Origin: Bacillota bacterium
GTDB lineage: Bacteria > Bacillota > Dehalobacteriia > UBA4068
Reading direction: 5' to 3'
Length of the DNA stretch: 15,756 bases
Assembly: GCA_017439615.1 (NCBI GenBank)
Contig: JAFSIU010000167.1
Span: forward strand, 1 to 15,756
The notes under the pieces were generated by a model. The model was not told the origin of the DNA. It saw only the letters and a list, made by a program, of their open reading frames with translations, and made no database searches. Shown one piece after another: positions 7,527 to 12,933 of the stretch. Position 1 is the first letter of the stretch, and every line of letters begins with the position of its first letter. A program made the translations under genes and the position numbers.

Positions 7527-9374
7527 TCAATTCCCTGTTCTTCGCAGGGCTTGCATCTGTTTTTGACTTTCTGTCAATGCGCTCAAAAGCTCAGGATCTG
7601 CTTCGCCGTTTTTGAGACGTTCAAGCATATTATTGATTTCCTGCTGAATAATTGCAATCTTCACTCCTCGGATATATTCATCCGCCAAACGCAAATTATT
7701 GTCCTCGGGAAATTCCTTGCTTAATAATTTCAACAAAAATTGCTTTATACCTTCATTTTGAACAGATTTTCTTGTATTTTCTTCTTTAATATTAGCTAAA
7801 TCTTGCGGATTTCCTGCTTGCATTTCATCAATTTTCTCCAAAAGTGTTGCAGGCTGCCAATTATAGTCAGAATAGTTGGCTTTTACAACAGCTGCAAGCA
7901 GACATTCTGCTTTTGTGTTCCAGAAATCGAGTCCAAGTTCTGCTTCCACCTTATCGAAAACCTTTTTGTTCTCGATCGCAATACGCAAAAGCGGCGCGGT
8001 CTTGCTGCTGAGATTTATATTAAGCGGAGCAGCTTTAGCCGCAGCAGCTTTGGGCGCTGCGATTTTCAAGCCGCTTTTACGCAGATCTGCATAAACAGTC
8101 TCTGGAAGCACTCCGAGCTTATCCGCCATAAGACGAATGAAGCTGTCTCTTTCAACAACACTTTGCGTATTGGCAATGGCAGGCAAAAGTTCTGATACGA
8201 TACTGCTTTTGCCATGAACGCTTTGCTTGTCGAATTTCTGCAGTGCCGCATTCAGCAAAAACTCAAGCACTCCCAAAGAATTATGTGCGACATAATTATC
8301 CCAGCCTTCCTTGCCTTCTTTTTTGAGAAAATCATCCGGATCCATTCCATTCGGAAGAGTTATCAGCTTGATATCAAAATTGGCAGCACGCAAAATCTCA
8401 ATACCTCTCAATGAGGCTTTTTGACCTGCGTTGTCACCATCATAGGCAAGCAGCACCTTATCGGTATAGCGGCGCAGCAGCTGAGCCTGCTCTTTGGTCA
8501 GAGCTGTTCCAAGTGAGGCAACGGCATTATTAACACCATAGCGATGCGCCATGAGCACATCCATATAGCCCTCCATGATCACGGCCCGATCGAGCTTGCG
8601 TATATTGCTTCCTGCCTGATGCAGACCAAAAAGATTGGCAGATTTATTATAAATAGGGGTTTCGGTGGAATTAAGATATTTCGGAGTTCCATCCCCGATT
8701 ATCCTGCCGCCAAAAGCAATCACTTGTCCTTTATAATCAGAAATCGGGAAAATGAGTCTTGAATGGAATTTGTCATAAAGCTTGCCTGTTTTGGCACTTT
8801 TGCCACCAAGACCAGCTTTTTCTATCAAGGCATAGCTATAGCCTTTTTTCTGCAAATGTCGGCAAAGCGCTTCCCAATCATTGTCGGGGGCATAACCAAG
8901 CATAAAGCTTTTGGCAAGCTCTTGTGGGATATCTCGCTTTTTCATATATTCGATTGCGATTCTTGAATTTGCGTTATTGGCAAGCTGCGCGGCATAAAAT
9001 TCCGCTGCCAGCTTATGCATATTGAAAATCTGATTGCGTTCCTGACGTTTTTTTTCCTCCTGAGGAGAAAGAGCTTTTTCGGGGATAACAATACCAAGCT
9101 CCGCTGCCAGCTTTCTGGCTGCTTCGACAAAGCTCAGGTTTTCGATCTCCATCAGAAAATTGATTGGCCCTCCACCCTTTTGACATCCAAAGCAATAACA
9201 TATCTGCTTATCCGGAGTAACAGTAAAAGATGGAGTATCCTCATTATGAAAAGGGCACAGACCGATATAATTTCTGCCTGTCCGGCGCAAAGAAACATAG
9301 CGGCCGACAAGATCAAGAATATCGACTCTGCGATTGATTTCTTCAATGATCTCTTGCGGTATCAATCCTGCCAA
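7527..9374 (-). CDS. dnaG: DNA primase DnaG
   Basis: DnaG makes RNA primers at the replication fork. It has 615 residues, typical length. The N-terminal CHC2 zinc domain has C40, H43, C61 and C64 ([18 protein letters not shown], then CYCFGC). The RNA polymerase/TOPRIM core contains [20 protein letters not shown], the catalytic glutamate in [13 protein letters not shown], and the metal-binding DGD in [13 protein letters not shown]. The C-terminal third (after about residue 430) is the poorly conserved helicase-binding region, starting after an alanine-rich linker. The start is TTG at 9374, 7 nt after GGGAG, and the sequence matches the usual xxIPxExIxEI start. It is the first gene of the dnaG-rpoD unit. 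I could not pick out a convincing promoter between 9375 and 9500. Confidence 0.98.
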
Positions 9375-9474
9375 ACAGACACTCCCTTTCCTGAAAAGTT
9401 TTGCTTTCTAAATTCGCTAAAAATAGCATTTTTCCTTCTTTTGTAGCACTTTTGCTTAAATAAGCACAAAGAAA

Positions 9475-9496
9475 AAGCGTGCATTGATTCACGCTT
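9475..9496 (-). terminator. Hairpin with T run on the minus strand
   Basis: The arms AAGCGTG (9475-9481) and CACGCTT (9490-9496) have an 8-nt loop. On the minus strand the stem ends in CGCTTTTTC, as an intrinsic terminator would. It lies between the structured RNA locus and dnaG, so it could stop transcripts coming from the SLH-protein gene and shield dnaG. In the plus direction the same stem is followed by AGATTTTT. Confidence 0.55.
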
Positions 9497-9513
9497 AGAT
9501 TTTTCCCAAAATG

Positions 9514-9522
9514 TGGCATAAT
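9514..9522 (+). promoter_or_regulatory. Extended -10 promoter for the structured RNA
   Basis: TG-G-CATAAT at 9514-9522 on the plus strand is a good extended -10 element. The -35 region 16-17 nt upstream is weak (TTAGAT or CTTAGA). Transcription would start near 9529, about 20 nt before the first helix of the RNA. A second TATAAT at 9541-9546 has no matching -35. Confidence 0.5.
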
Positions 9523-9528
9523 ATACTA

Positions 9529-9746
9529 AAGCTCAATGGATATAATAGCAACGAGAAGGATTCTGACCGTGCCTGCGGTATTTCGCCCGCAGGATAGCTG
9601 ATGAAAAAGCGGATAAGTCGGAATAGTCTTCTCTTGAACAAAGCGGGGCTATTTCATTAAGCTAAAAGAAGCAAAAACAACGATCGCAGCTACGGTCTTA
9701 TAGTTGTTTAGGATTCTTTATTCAAAGCTTATCCGCCCCGCTTTTG
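9529..9746 (+). ncRNA. Structured non-coding RNA with crossing long-range helices (family not assigned)
   Basis: This is in a 378-nt stretch without a gene. Helices read by eye on the plus strand: 9549-9567 with 9617-9636 (CAA-GAGAAG then ATTCTGAC, with one bulge and an AG internal loop); a GC-rich hairpin CCTGCGG/CCGCAGG (9572-9578/9587-9593); TAGCT plus GATGAAA (9595-9606) with 9652-9664; GCGGATAAG (9609-9617) with 9728-9736; AAAGCGGGGC (9640-9649) with 9735-9744; and AAACAAC-GATCG with CGGTC-GTTGTTT (9675-9686/9693-9709). Several cross each other, so the RNA is pseudoknotted or switches between folds. Four pairs are G-U on the plus strand (9559/9627, 9564/9620, 9600/9658, 9684/9695) and would be A-C on the minus, which fixes the strand. 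The 3' end is GCCCCGCTTTT, terminator-like. The size and pseudoknots recall the raiA RNA of Bacillota, a low-confidence guess. 6S, tmRNA, RNase P and SRP RNA do not fit. Confidence 0.72.
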
Positions 9747-9752
9747 ATTGCT

Positions 9753-11297
9753 TTAGTTTGCACCGCGATATTTAAGAGCACGGTTGATAAAGGCTGCCAT
9801 TTCTGCTCTTGTCAACTCGGCATCGGGAGCAAAAACTGTATCGGAATAGCCTGCAATCAAGCCTGCATTATAAAGAGAACTGACAGCTCCTGCTGCCCAA
9901 TGTGAAGCATCAATATCCTTAAACGGCAATTTATCATCAGTCTCCGGCAAGGCAAGCAGCCTGCACAAAATAGCCGCCATTTCGGCACGGGTCAAATTTG
10001 CTTCAGGACGGAATAAGCCATCCGAACCTACCATCAAGCCTCCCTGAGCAACATTTGCAATATATGGCGCATACCATGCATTTGCATCAATATCACTGAA
10101 ACCGTGATATGCAGGGGTTTCGGGCTTCAGAATACGGTGCAGCAAAACTGCCATTTCGGCACGGGTAACCTTTTGTTCAGGGGCAAAGATATAATCTGAC
10201 ACACCGACCAGCAAATTGCTTTCATAAAGAGCATTGATATCTGCTGCCGCCCAATGGCCTATTGTATCATTGAAATGAGAATAGGAAACATTGATATAAA
10301 GCTTCGGCTGAACACTGACTGTTATATCAGCCCCCATATATTCATACTTAATATCATCAATATTGGCAGTACTGCTGAAATATAAATATCTGCGAGCAGG
10401 AGAGATATTGGCAAAATAATCCCAATCCACCAATTTCTGTTCATTGCCGAGAATATTGATGGTATAGGAAAAAGTGGGATCTGCAATTATCCAGCCTGCT
10501 TCGGGAATATAAAACTCAACCCAAGTATGCGCAAGCATAGATAAATCGATATAACCCTCTTCGATATTAACATAGGGATCTGATGTATGCATTGCCGGCT
10601 CATAAACATAGCCTGTTTGCAGTCGTGCGGGAATTCCCATTGCACGCAACACCGCTGCATAAAGCTGAGAATAATCCACACAGGTGCCTCTGCCTGTTTG
10701 CAATGCCGCCAATGCTCCCGTACGGTCATCATCACGCTCTTCATAGGTCATATACAAATTGACATCAGCGAAAGCTTTTTTCGCCAGACTGTAAAGATTC
10801 TTGTCACCGCTTTGCAGAAATTCTGCGCCATAGCGCATGATATCGCTGCTATCACTTTCTATGCCCTGTTCCGGCATAATATATTTGGGATCAACAGCAG
10901 ATACATCATGCGAGGAAAGACTTTTGGCATCGATATTATACTTCAAGGAGCTGTTCTCAATAAAATAGTCCACATTGATTTCCTTGCTGCTTTGCGGAGC
11001 AAGGCTTGCGATATTAAACAAGGCAAACAGCTGATGTTCTTTGTTGGTAAAGACCATCAGCGGCTCAGTGCTATACCTTTGTCCGAGAATATGCTGATAT
11101 ACAGGTTGTTCTTCATTTATAAGCGGTACTGTAACATAAATATTACGGGCAAAGGTATCTGTGTCATTACTGACCGTTATGCTGTGCCTTATCTGATAGG
11201 TTGATGGTGAGCTAAGCTCATAGGCAAAGGTTTTTTGTGCACAAAAAAAGAGGAGTATGAACATGAGCAGAAGCACGGGGCTTGTTCTTTTTATCAT
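9753..11297 (-). CDS. Secreted transglutaminase-like protein with three SLH repeats
   Basis: A 514-residue cell-surface protein. Residues 1-25 form a signal peptide (charged MIKRTS, hydrophobic LLLMFILLFF, likely cut after TFA). Residues of about 30-140 are a beta-rich region of unknown type. Residues of about 150-280 are a transglutaminase-like core with the triad C206 (GRGTCVDYSQ), H257 (AHTWVEFYI) and D273 (GWIIADPTF). Three SLH repeats follow at about 341-390, 399-448 and 459-508, each with the TRAEM motif and a FxDI/W start; they anchor proteins to cell-wall polymers or peptidoglycan. The catalytic residues are intact, so it may be a protease or cross-linking enzyme acting at the envelope; the substrate is unknown. 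ATG at 11297 follows GAGGAGG by 6 nt. It lies 56 nt after coaD, without an obvious terminator between them. It converges with the structured RNA. Confidence 0.93.
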   Translation of the reverse strand: MIKRTSPVLLLMFILLFFCAQKTFAYELSSPSTYQIRHSITVSNDTDTFARNIYVTVPLINEEQPVYQHILGQRYSTEPLMVFTNKEHQLFALFNIASLAPQSSKEINVDYFIENSSLKYNIDAKSLSSHDVSAVDPKYIMPEQGIESDSSDIMRYGAEFLQSGDKNLYSLAKKAFADVNLYMTYEERDDDRTGALAALQTGRGTCVDYSQLYAAVLRAMGIPARLQTGYVYEPAMHTSDPYVNIEEGYIDLSMLAHTWVEFYIPEAGWIIADPTFSYTINILGNEQKLVDWDYFANISPARRYLYFSSTANIDDIKYEYMGADITVSVQPKLYINVSYSHFNDTIGHWAAADINALYESNLLVGVSDYIFAPEQKVTRAEMAVLLHRILKPETPAYHGFSDIDANAWYAPYIANVAQGGLMVGSDGLFRPEANLTRAEMAAILCRLLALPETDDKLPFKDIDASHWAAGAVSSLYNAGLIAGYSDTVFAPDAELTRAEMAAFINRALKYRGAN

Positions 11298-11964: not shown

Positions 11965-12933
11965 ATGAGAATTGATTGGGAGAAAAAAGAATATCTGCTT
12001 CTCAGCGAAAAGGCAATGCACGCGGACAAGAGCCGCGGCAGAAGCATACCTGAAGAAGAATGTCCGATGCGTACCTGCTATCAGCGGGACAGAGACAGGA
12101 TAATTCACAGCAAGTCCTTCCGCCGACTGAAGCATAAAACGCAGGTTTTTGTTGCACCCAAGGGTGATCATTTCCGTACCAGAATGACACATACGCTGGA
12201 GGTTATGCAAATCGCGCGCACCATTGCAAGAGCACTCTCGCTGAATGAGGATCTGACAGAGGCGATAGCCTTCGGTCATGACCTTGGGCATACTCCCTTC
12301 GGGCATGCGGGTGAACGCACCCTTCAGCTGATGAATAACAGCTTCAGCCATAACAGCCAGAGTATCCGAGTGGTTGAGCTTTTGGAAAGAGATGGGCAAG
12401 GACTGAATCTGACCGCCGAGGTCAAGGATGGAATTCTCAATCACACGGGCGATGGTCTCCCCTTCACTCTTGAGGGACAGATCGTGCGAATTGCCGACCG
12501 CATCGGCTATGTCAATCATGATATTGATGATGCTTTACGCGCAGGGCTTATCACCATTAATTCCCTGCCGAAAAAGCCCCTGCAGCTTTTTGGCGAGCGC
12601 AACAGCGAGCGTATCAATGCCATGGTGTTGGACATGATCAAAACCAGCGAGAAAACAGGCAAAATCGGTATGTCTGAGCAAGCCTTTGCCGCATTGATGG
12701 AGCTCAGAGATTATCTTTTCAAGAATGTCTATCTGCGTGAAGAGGCAATGGAAGAGGAAGGCAATATACGCGAAAAGATTTTGCAGATGTATGCCTATTT
12801 CAAGGAAAATCCGCAGGAAATGCGGCTTGATTATCGTGATGCAAACCTCGATTTAGCAGTTTGCGATTATATCTCCGGTATGACGGATAATTATGCCTTT
12901 GATGAATATGAAAGGCTGAAAGAAAAGTTTTAA
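11965..12933 (+). CDS. dgt: Deoxyguanosinetriphosphate triphosphohydrolase-like HD protein
   Basis: An HD-domain dNTP triphosphohydrolase, 322 residues, which splits dNTPs to nucleoside and tripolyphosphate and so trims nucleotide pools. Metal ligands can be placed: H76 (RMTHTLEVMQIAR), H105-D106 (AFGHDLGHTPFGHAG) and D178 (QIVRIADRIGYVNHDIDDAL). SKSFRRLKHKTQVF near residue 50 is also typical. The short form without long insertions is usual in Bacillota. ATG at 11965 is 7 nt after AAGGAG. It is the only protein gene on the plus strand here. In many Bacillota a dgt-like gene sits directly before dnaG-rpoD; here it is separated from them by coaD, the SLH gene and the structured RNA and points the other way, which suggests local rearrangement. 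Strict specificity for dGTP is not shown. Confidence 0.95.
   Translation: MRIDWEKKEYLLLSEKAMHADKSRGRSIPEEECPMRTCYQRDRDRIIHSKSFRRLKHKTQVFVAPKGDHFRTRMTHTLEVMQIARTIARALSLNEDLTEAIAFGHDLGHTPFGHAGERTLQLMNNSFSHNSQSIRVVELLERDGQGLNLTAEVKDGILNHTGDGLPFTLEGQIVRIADRIGYVNHDIDDALRAGLITINSLPKKPLQLFGERNSERINAMVLDMIKTSEKTGKIGMSEQAFAALMELRDYLFKNVYLREEAMEEEGNIREKILQMYAYFKENPQEMRLDYRDANLDLAVCDYISGMTDNYAFDEYERLKEKF

Follow-up and report, generated by a model that had tools for sequence, protein, structure and literature searches.

The plus strand of the window (the whole stretch of 15,756 nt analysed here, from a genome of the Bacillota class Dehalobacteriia) carries an element between dnaG and a surface-protein gene that is best explained as a stand-alone small RNA gene, a diverged member of an RNA family of about 73 nt. 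Comparison of the sequences makes it very probable that this is a real family of forespore-type RNAs and that the window belongs to it. The family appears to be new, since no description of it was found among the open-licence papers listed and Rfam scans gave no gathering-level match to it. In relatives the consensus consists of the first strand of helix P1, CUG, hairpin P2 (loop GUC), AUAG, hairpin P3 (loop UGACC), GAAGAG and the second strand of P1 (P1'), mostly followed by U-rich sequence.

The element (9529-9746) is flanked by dnaG (7527-9374, minus strand) and a gene for a protein with SLH and transglutaminase domains (9753-11297, minus strand), so that its downstream neighbour lies on the opposite strand and no same-strand gene directly follows. 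A first-pass annotation had described a structured RNA here, and helices are indeed present in excess of shuffled expectation. There are three exact stems of at least 8 bp (shuffle mean 0.46; 2 of 200 shuffles reach this number) and five of at least 7 bp (mean 1.51; 4 of 200). Three of the helices are perfect (9572-9578/9587-9593, 7 bp; 9609-9617/9728-9736, 9 bp; 9640-9649/9735-9744, 10 bp) and positions 9735-9736 are, as it said, shared by two of them, but 9595-9606/9652-9664 proved, by hand from the letters, to be an interrupted pairing only. An extra, rival 8-bp stem is formed by 9605-9612/9738-9745. The plus strand folds with -67.7 kcal/mol (z = -3.4; equalled by none of 200 shuffles). Folding alone leaves the strand undecided, as the minus strand also folds well (z = -2.8; equalled by 3 of 200 shuffles).

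The unguided minimum-energy fold combines a 5' three-way junction (9553-9633) with a long 3' hairpin (9640-9744; Table 1). Complementarity between the 5' and 3' parts of this fold accounts for the pseudoknots that had been proposed. A pseudoknot of another sort, with the P2 and P3 loops in contact, is plausible, but those originally listed need a 3' half that was seen in no relative. As for the suggested two alternative folds, forcing the competing fold through 9609/9736 gave -56.0 rather than -67.5 kcal/mol, a cost of about 11 kcal/mol (one fold forced, with pseudoknot energies outside the calculation), and a balance between two folds is thus unsupported. The terminator-like end of the 3' hairpin is a perfect 10-bp helix, but only a short U-run follows it; it is likely, judging from the modelled fold, that this hairpin serves as a substitute terminator. 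Between dnaG and the RNA there is another hairpin (AAGCGTGCATTGATTCACGCTT, 9475-9496), followed by T-rich sequence on both strands, which by its letters is terminator-like in both directions. A hammerhead-like CUGAUGA in the window was dropped as a candidate, being absent from relatives by eye.

Table 1. Features of the window's element and its upstream region (window coordinates).
Feature	Positions	Strand	Basis and detail
-35-like element	9516-9523	+	Promoter pattern search; GCATA at 9516-9520, spacer 17 nt
Alternative reading of -35 element	9516-9523	+	By eye; TAATA at 9519-9523, 4/5 letters, usual 14-nt spacer
-10 element, forespore sigma type, GGATATAATA	9538-9547	+	GGNNANAHTR, 10/10; ends 7 nt before the model match
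Three-way-junction-like RNA, putative diverged family member	9553-9633	+	R1 and R3 matches; unguided fold agrees
P1, 5' strand	9553-9567	+	Fold; partners 9617-9624 and 9627-9633
P2 hairpin CCUGCGG/CCGCAGG	9572-9593	+	R3 match and fold; loop 9579-9586
AUAG, junction element invariant in the family	9594-9597	+	Alignments
P3 hairpin GCU/AGC	9597-9610	+	R3 match and fold; loop 9600-9607
Possible loop-loop contact	9581-9606	+	Alignment, suggestive only; UUUCG 9581-9585 with UGAAA 9602-9606
P1, 3' strand	9617-9633	+	Fold and U-rich test; no U-run after it
3' hairpin, terminator-like ends	9640-9746	+	Fold; ends 9640-9649/9735-9744; absent from relatives examined

A motif of about 75 nt is conserved upstream of dnaG in five relatives from the same taxonomic family, and its strand with respect to dnaG is that of the window's element; the five were drawn from 19 genomes in which dnaG was found, the window's own included. 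When a covariance model of these five relatives without the window (R1) was run on 43 genomes of the class, it matched 16, with E-values no higher than 3.9e-6 in 15. One R1 match (L042, E = 0.007) had no dnaG or dgt found nearby and no P2 hairpin; it is likely due to chance and was left out of the counts. A second model (R2), made from 15 class members plus the window, matched 59 of 398 genomes of the phylum with one match per genome. Seven of these genomes, counting the window's own, belong to the class; the other 52 fall in 13 families outside it, and of their loci 24 were examined further and 28 left out. Within the order R2 matched 12 of 35 genomes, again including the window's own, and the other 23 gave no match. 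A weak second R2 match (E = 0.033) was seen in genome G009, where purine-rich repeats of the GGACGGAAG/GGAGGACAGA type lie beside the RNA locus (L004, at about 160-260 of the stretch upstream of dnaG).

Model R3, built from 40 members without the window (its training rows having been aligned with R2), matched 61 of 398 genomes in nearly the same phylum sample. It also matched six of 31 genomes from named records (31 of the 44 loci listed): Ca. Formimonas warabiya DCMF, which is the one named strain among them, and five MAGs, four of Peptococcaceae and one of Clostridia. The Formimonas genome (G041) is related to the window at the level of class. No R3 match was found in the other 25 of the 31, which include Pelotomaculum, Alkaliphilus, Bacillus, Virgibacillus and Planococcus; the Bacilli were sampled through three named genomes, none of which R3 matched.

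Both models made without the window recover its copy at 9555-9631 with filters off: R1 scored 26.8 bits (E = 4.7e-5; next best 14.9) and R3 31.5 bits (E = 2.1e-6; next best 13.8). With default filters R1 missed it. In a control on the dnaG loci of 13 RNA-less genomes of the same taxonomic family (up to about 1.5 kb on each side) the best score was 15.9 bits, for a plain hairpin. The position and strand of the match relative to dnaG are also those seen in relatives. The score of 51.3 bits given by R2 proves nothing about membership, because R2 was built with the window inside it, and the window's place among the 59 and the 12 genomes is likewise not evidence; R1 and R3 are what count. A DNA search of 61 genomes with the window's region returned only the region itself and one 26-nt match, by eye in a coding region.

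The fold is strongly supported in relatives. In a model-fitted alignment of the 40 members without the window, 93.1% of paired cells can pair, against 64.6% after shuffling. The covariation score was 0.789, compared with 0.232 for shuffled alignments and at most 0.170 for slid partners, and both-side changes occupied 333 cells, against 99.6 when shuffled; none of 500 shuffles reached any of these three values. Two measures were weaker: 8 of 500 shuffles had both-side changes in at least as many pairs as observed (23 of 27), and 7 of 500 attained the observed number of pair types. RNAalifold was also run on a plain MAFFT alignment of 26 members, the near-duplicates and divergent ones among the 40 (including L030, L039, L041, L094 and L116) having been left out. 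It recovered P1 and P2, and 18 of their 21 pairs showed both-side changes. In a MAFFT alignment of 16 sequences, the beginning of L041 and the 3' parts of both the window and L030 were set in the wrong columns. P3 was not predicted by RNAalifold among the 26 members, where CUG paired with UAG instead. The second pair of P3 does covary (C-G in 32 members, U-A in seven, U-G in one), and in 15 of 38 cells the third pair cannot form. A contact between the P2 and P3 loops (GUC with GAC) is plausible. Its three core pairs are near-invariant (identical in 38, 37 and 37 of 38 cells) and barely vary, so covariation leaves the contact unproven. Covariation among relatives thus upholds P1 and P2 strongly, but the helices of the 3' half of the window's element were seen in no relative.

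All 15 strong members in the class adjoin dnaG and/or dgt, with the RNA on the opposite strand: 12 have both genes, flanking the RNA, two have dnaG only and one, near a contig end, has dgt only. In the window dgt (11965-12933) is inverted and moved away from dnaG. Of the 25 other members examined, 19 adjoin dnaG and/or dgt. This association might suggest a purely cis-acting role on dnaG or dgt, through antisense pairing, transcriptional collision or termination. Such a role is improbable, as the RNA lies on the same strand as dnaG/dgt at four loci (L091, L092, L100 and L105) and neither gene was found at six of the 25, which instead have genes of the MgtC family (L095, L097, L107, L110 and L113) or GalT family (L097, L110 and L115). 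All ten exceptional loci carry the promoter-like sequence described below. The RNA looks like a gene of its own, because its strand and neighbours vary among loci.

Upstream of P1 most members have sequences resembling GHATR and either GGNNANAHTR or CATNHTA, which we take to be the promoter letters of the forespore sigma factors F and G. A strict criterion demanded GHATR and, after a gap of 13 to 16 nt, either GGNNANAHTR (at least 9 of 10 letters) or CATNHTA, with no more than 13 nt left between its end and P1. Such a promoter-like sequence is present in 34 of 40 members (13 of 15 in the class and 21 of 25 others) and ends 1 to 13 nt before P1; the patterns were first applied to class members and the thresholds set after the upstream sequences of other members had been examined. 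The misses are L034, L040 (with 32 nt of upstream sequence only), L102, L104, L106 and L111. The pattern occurred in 143 of 32,675 control segments from other parts of these loci, mostly coding sequence, and in 55 of 8,000 random sequences that keep the local composition (0.4 to 0.7%).

A U-rich stretch (at least five of eight letters) follows P1 in 35 of 40 members, compared with 16% of random places. Among the five members that lack this stretch, L030 shows a separate hairpin and a T-run farther along. The evidence for termination is modest, since the mirror test on the opposite strand gave as much as 55%. P1 can double as a terminator, as a U-rich stretch follows it, and the family transcript would comprise the folded core and a U tail with little more. 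The same-strand promoter-like sequence and U-rich end in most members, the covariation in relatives and the varying orientation and neighbourhood support the earlier view of the element as a stand-alone plus-strand RNA.

The RNA is presumably made in the developing spore. The sporulation gene spoIVA was found in 58 of 59 RNA-bearing genomes and in 278 of 339 other genomes of the phylum (Fisher's test P = 3.7e-4, the genome lists being matched by eye and the test ignoring shared ancestry); the RNA-bearing genome G160, 80% complete, has no spoIVA. In the class it is present in 40 of 43 genomes, counting a fragment in the window's own, and of the 23 genomes of the order without an RNA match 20 carry it, so sporulation in general does not require the RNA. 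A search for sigG was non-discriminating, as other sigma factors matched too. The window's genome, which is incomplete, contains a spoIVA fragment at a contig end (C65:6-680) and a sigG-like fragment (C198:4224-4715), from which it is probably a spore former.

The window holds the lowest-scoring and most divergent copy. This copy departs from the consensus at CUG, in the GUC loop and at UGACC: the GUC/GAC of the family is replaced by UUC and GAA, and in the alignment UUUCG/UGAAA takes the place of the relatives' GUCA/UGAC. This is possibly a compensated loop change in which the pairs are kept; by estimate, a chance match between two 8-nt loops is not rare. Its -10 element is perfect and stands where most relatives have theirs, but the strict criterion fails on the -35 element, which lies at a spacing of 17 nt or, read by eye with one mismatch, at 14. 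The U-rich test directly after P1 also fails, as it does in five of the 40 other members, and the 3' hairpin stands there instead. Loss of consensus letters, the odd promoter spacing and the missing U-run would all suit a decaying remnant that no longer functions, whatever the family does; this is rather unlikely, given the length and near-perfect pairing of P1 and P2, the retention of AUAG and the fact that the loops can still pair together. If the copy is instead functional, the longer 3' hairpin would replace the usual termination site and give a predicted RNA of about 195 nt.

The family was compared with known RNAs. No Rfam 15 family matched the window at gathering level, and none matched the RNA in 35 RNA-bearing loci (5, 10 and 20 scanned), among them 20 of the 24 loci fetched from outside the class; in the first five loci only four tRNAs were found, all elsewhere. 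Permissive scans gave three weak, unrelated matches in 9375-9800 of the window and three matches in five family loci, none of which overlapped the RNA. RaiA RNA, about 200 nt long, had been the first-pass annotation's best guess, in favour of which are the length and structured appearance of the full 200 nt. It is unsupported because no gathering-level match exists in the window: the raiA and 6S RNA models, which we take to be in Rfam 15, matched the window neither at gathering level nor in the permissive scan of 9375-9800. That the element is raiA or another Rfam RNA is therefore scarcely credible. RaiA (ModT) is described as a structured noncoding RNA of Bacillota (PMC11706538), a likeness to the present family, which differs in its core of about 73 nt and in having no Rfam match. 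Among the open-licence PMC papers listed, judged from titles and abstract openings, none gave an account of an RNA like that described here.

Relocation of the forespore RNA CsfG could also be considered, since the promoter is of the same type and the window has coaD, presumably csfG's neighbour in Bacillus, at a distance of about 1.6 kb. This is very improbable. RF00516 (ylbH, the opposite strand of CsfG) gave no match in the window region, in five family loci (the window's included) or in the window's genome, yet it matched separate loci in three RNA-bearing genomes below the gathering score of 50 bits (G041, 41.1; G035, 30.2; G039, 29.9). By its sequence, then, CsfG is a different RNA. A fourth sub-threshold match, in G011, looks like a repeat. 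The CsfG/ylbH-like sequences below the Rfam cut-off (L087 1501-1648 in G041, L089 1501-1639 in G035 and L090 1501-1633 in G039) are probable unannotated CsfG genes; L087 and L089 both contain GAGAGGAGAAACCGGAGGAAGAGCUCAUGGGG, much of which is also in the RF00516 model. CsfG is described as a small stand-alone RNA that is controlled by forespore sigma-F/G and conserved among spore-forming bacteria (PMC3574147, PMC9147052), with CU-rich conserved stretches (PMC3574147). The present family resembles it in probably being stand-alone and in the letters of its putative promoter (34 of 40 members, the window not among them), but differs in sequence, fold and gene neighbourhood.

A further likeness is to the purine and 2'-deoxyguanosine riboswitches, whose fold has three helices and two hairpin loops in contact. 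The core letters of the family are unlike those of these riboswitches, there is no Rfam match, and in the window no same-strand gene lies directly after the RNA.

The near-invariant letters of the family (CUG, GUC, AUAG, UGAC and GAAGAG) lie in the junctions and the two loops and not in a free tail. The RNA may thus depend for its action on its three-dimensional fold and bind a protein or ligand in trans, which seems likelier than pairing with one mRNA; we would give such shape-based action an even chance. The main competitor, a forespore small RNA whose loops and U tail pair with mRNAs, with or without Hfq, is the less favoured reading. It fits a stand-alone gene with a forespore-type promoter and a U-rich tail in most members, but the conserved letters that lie outside helices are complementary to one another (GUC with GAC) and occupy junctions, and hardly any free 5' end is left in the predicted transcript. 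For CsfG, an account from 2022 names no mRNA target as identified by then (PMC9147052), and the introduction of a paper from 2025 has it regulating mRNAs (PMC12456014). More tentatively still than shape-based action in general, the RNA may be carried into the spore and bind a protein or ligand through its fold, the window's lineage having swapped the loop contact and gained a 3' domain that could invade P3 and P1 and so make the RNA switchable.

Few forespore-specific RNAs are known to us. If the present interpretation is correct, the family would be a second forespore-type RNA, unrelated to CsfG, with a compact conserved fold, present in 13 families outside the window's class. It would offer a direct handle on the role of RNA in spore formation, and its conserved core marks the letters to test.
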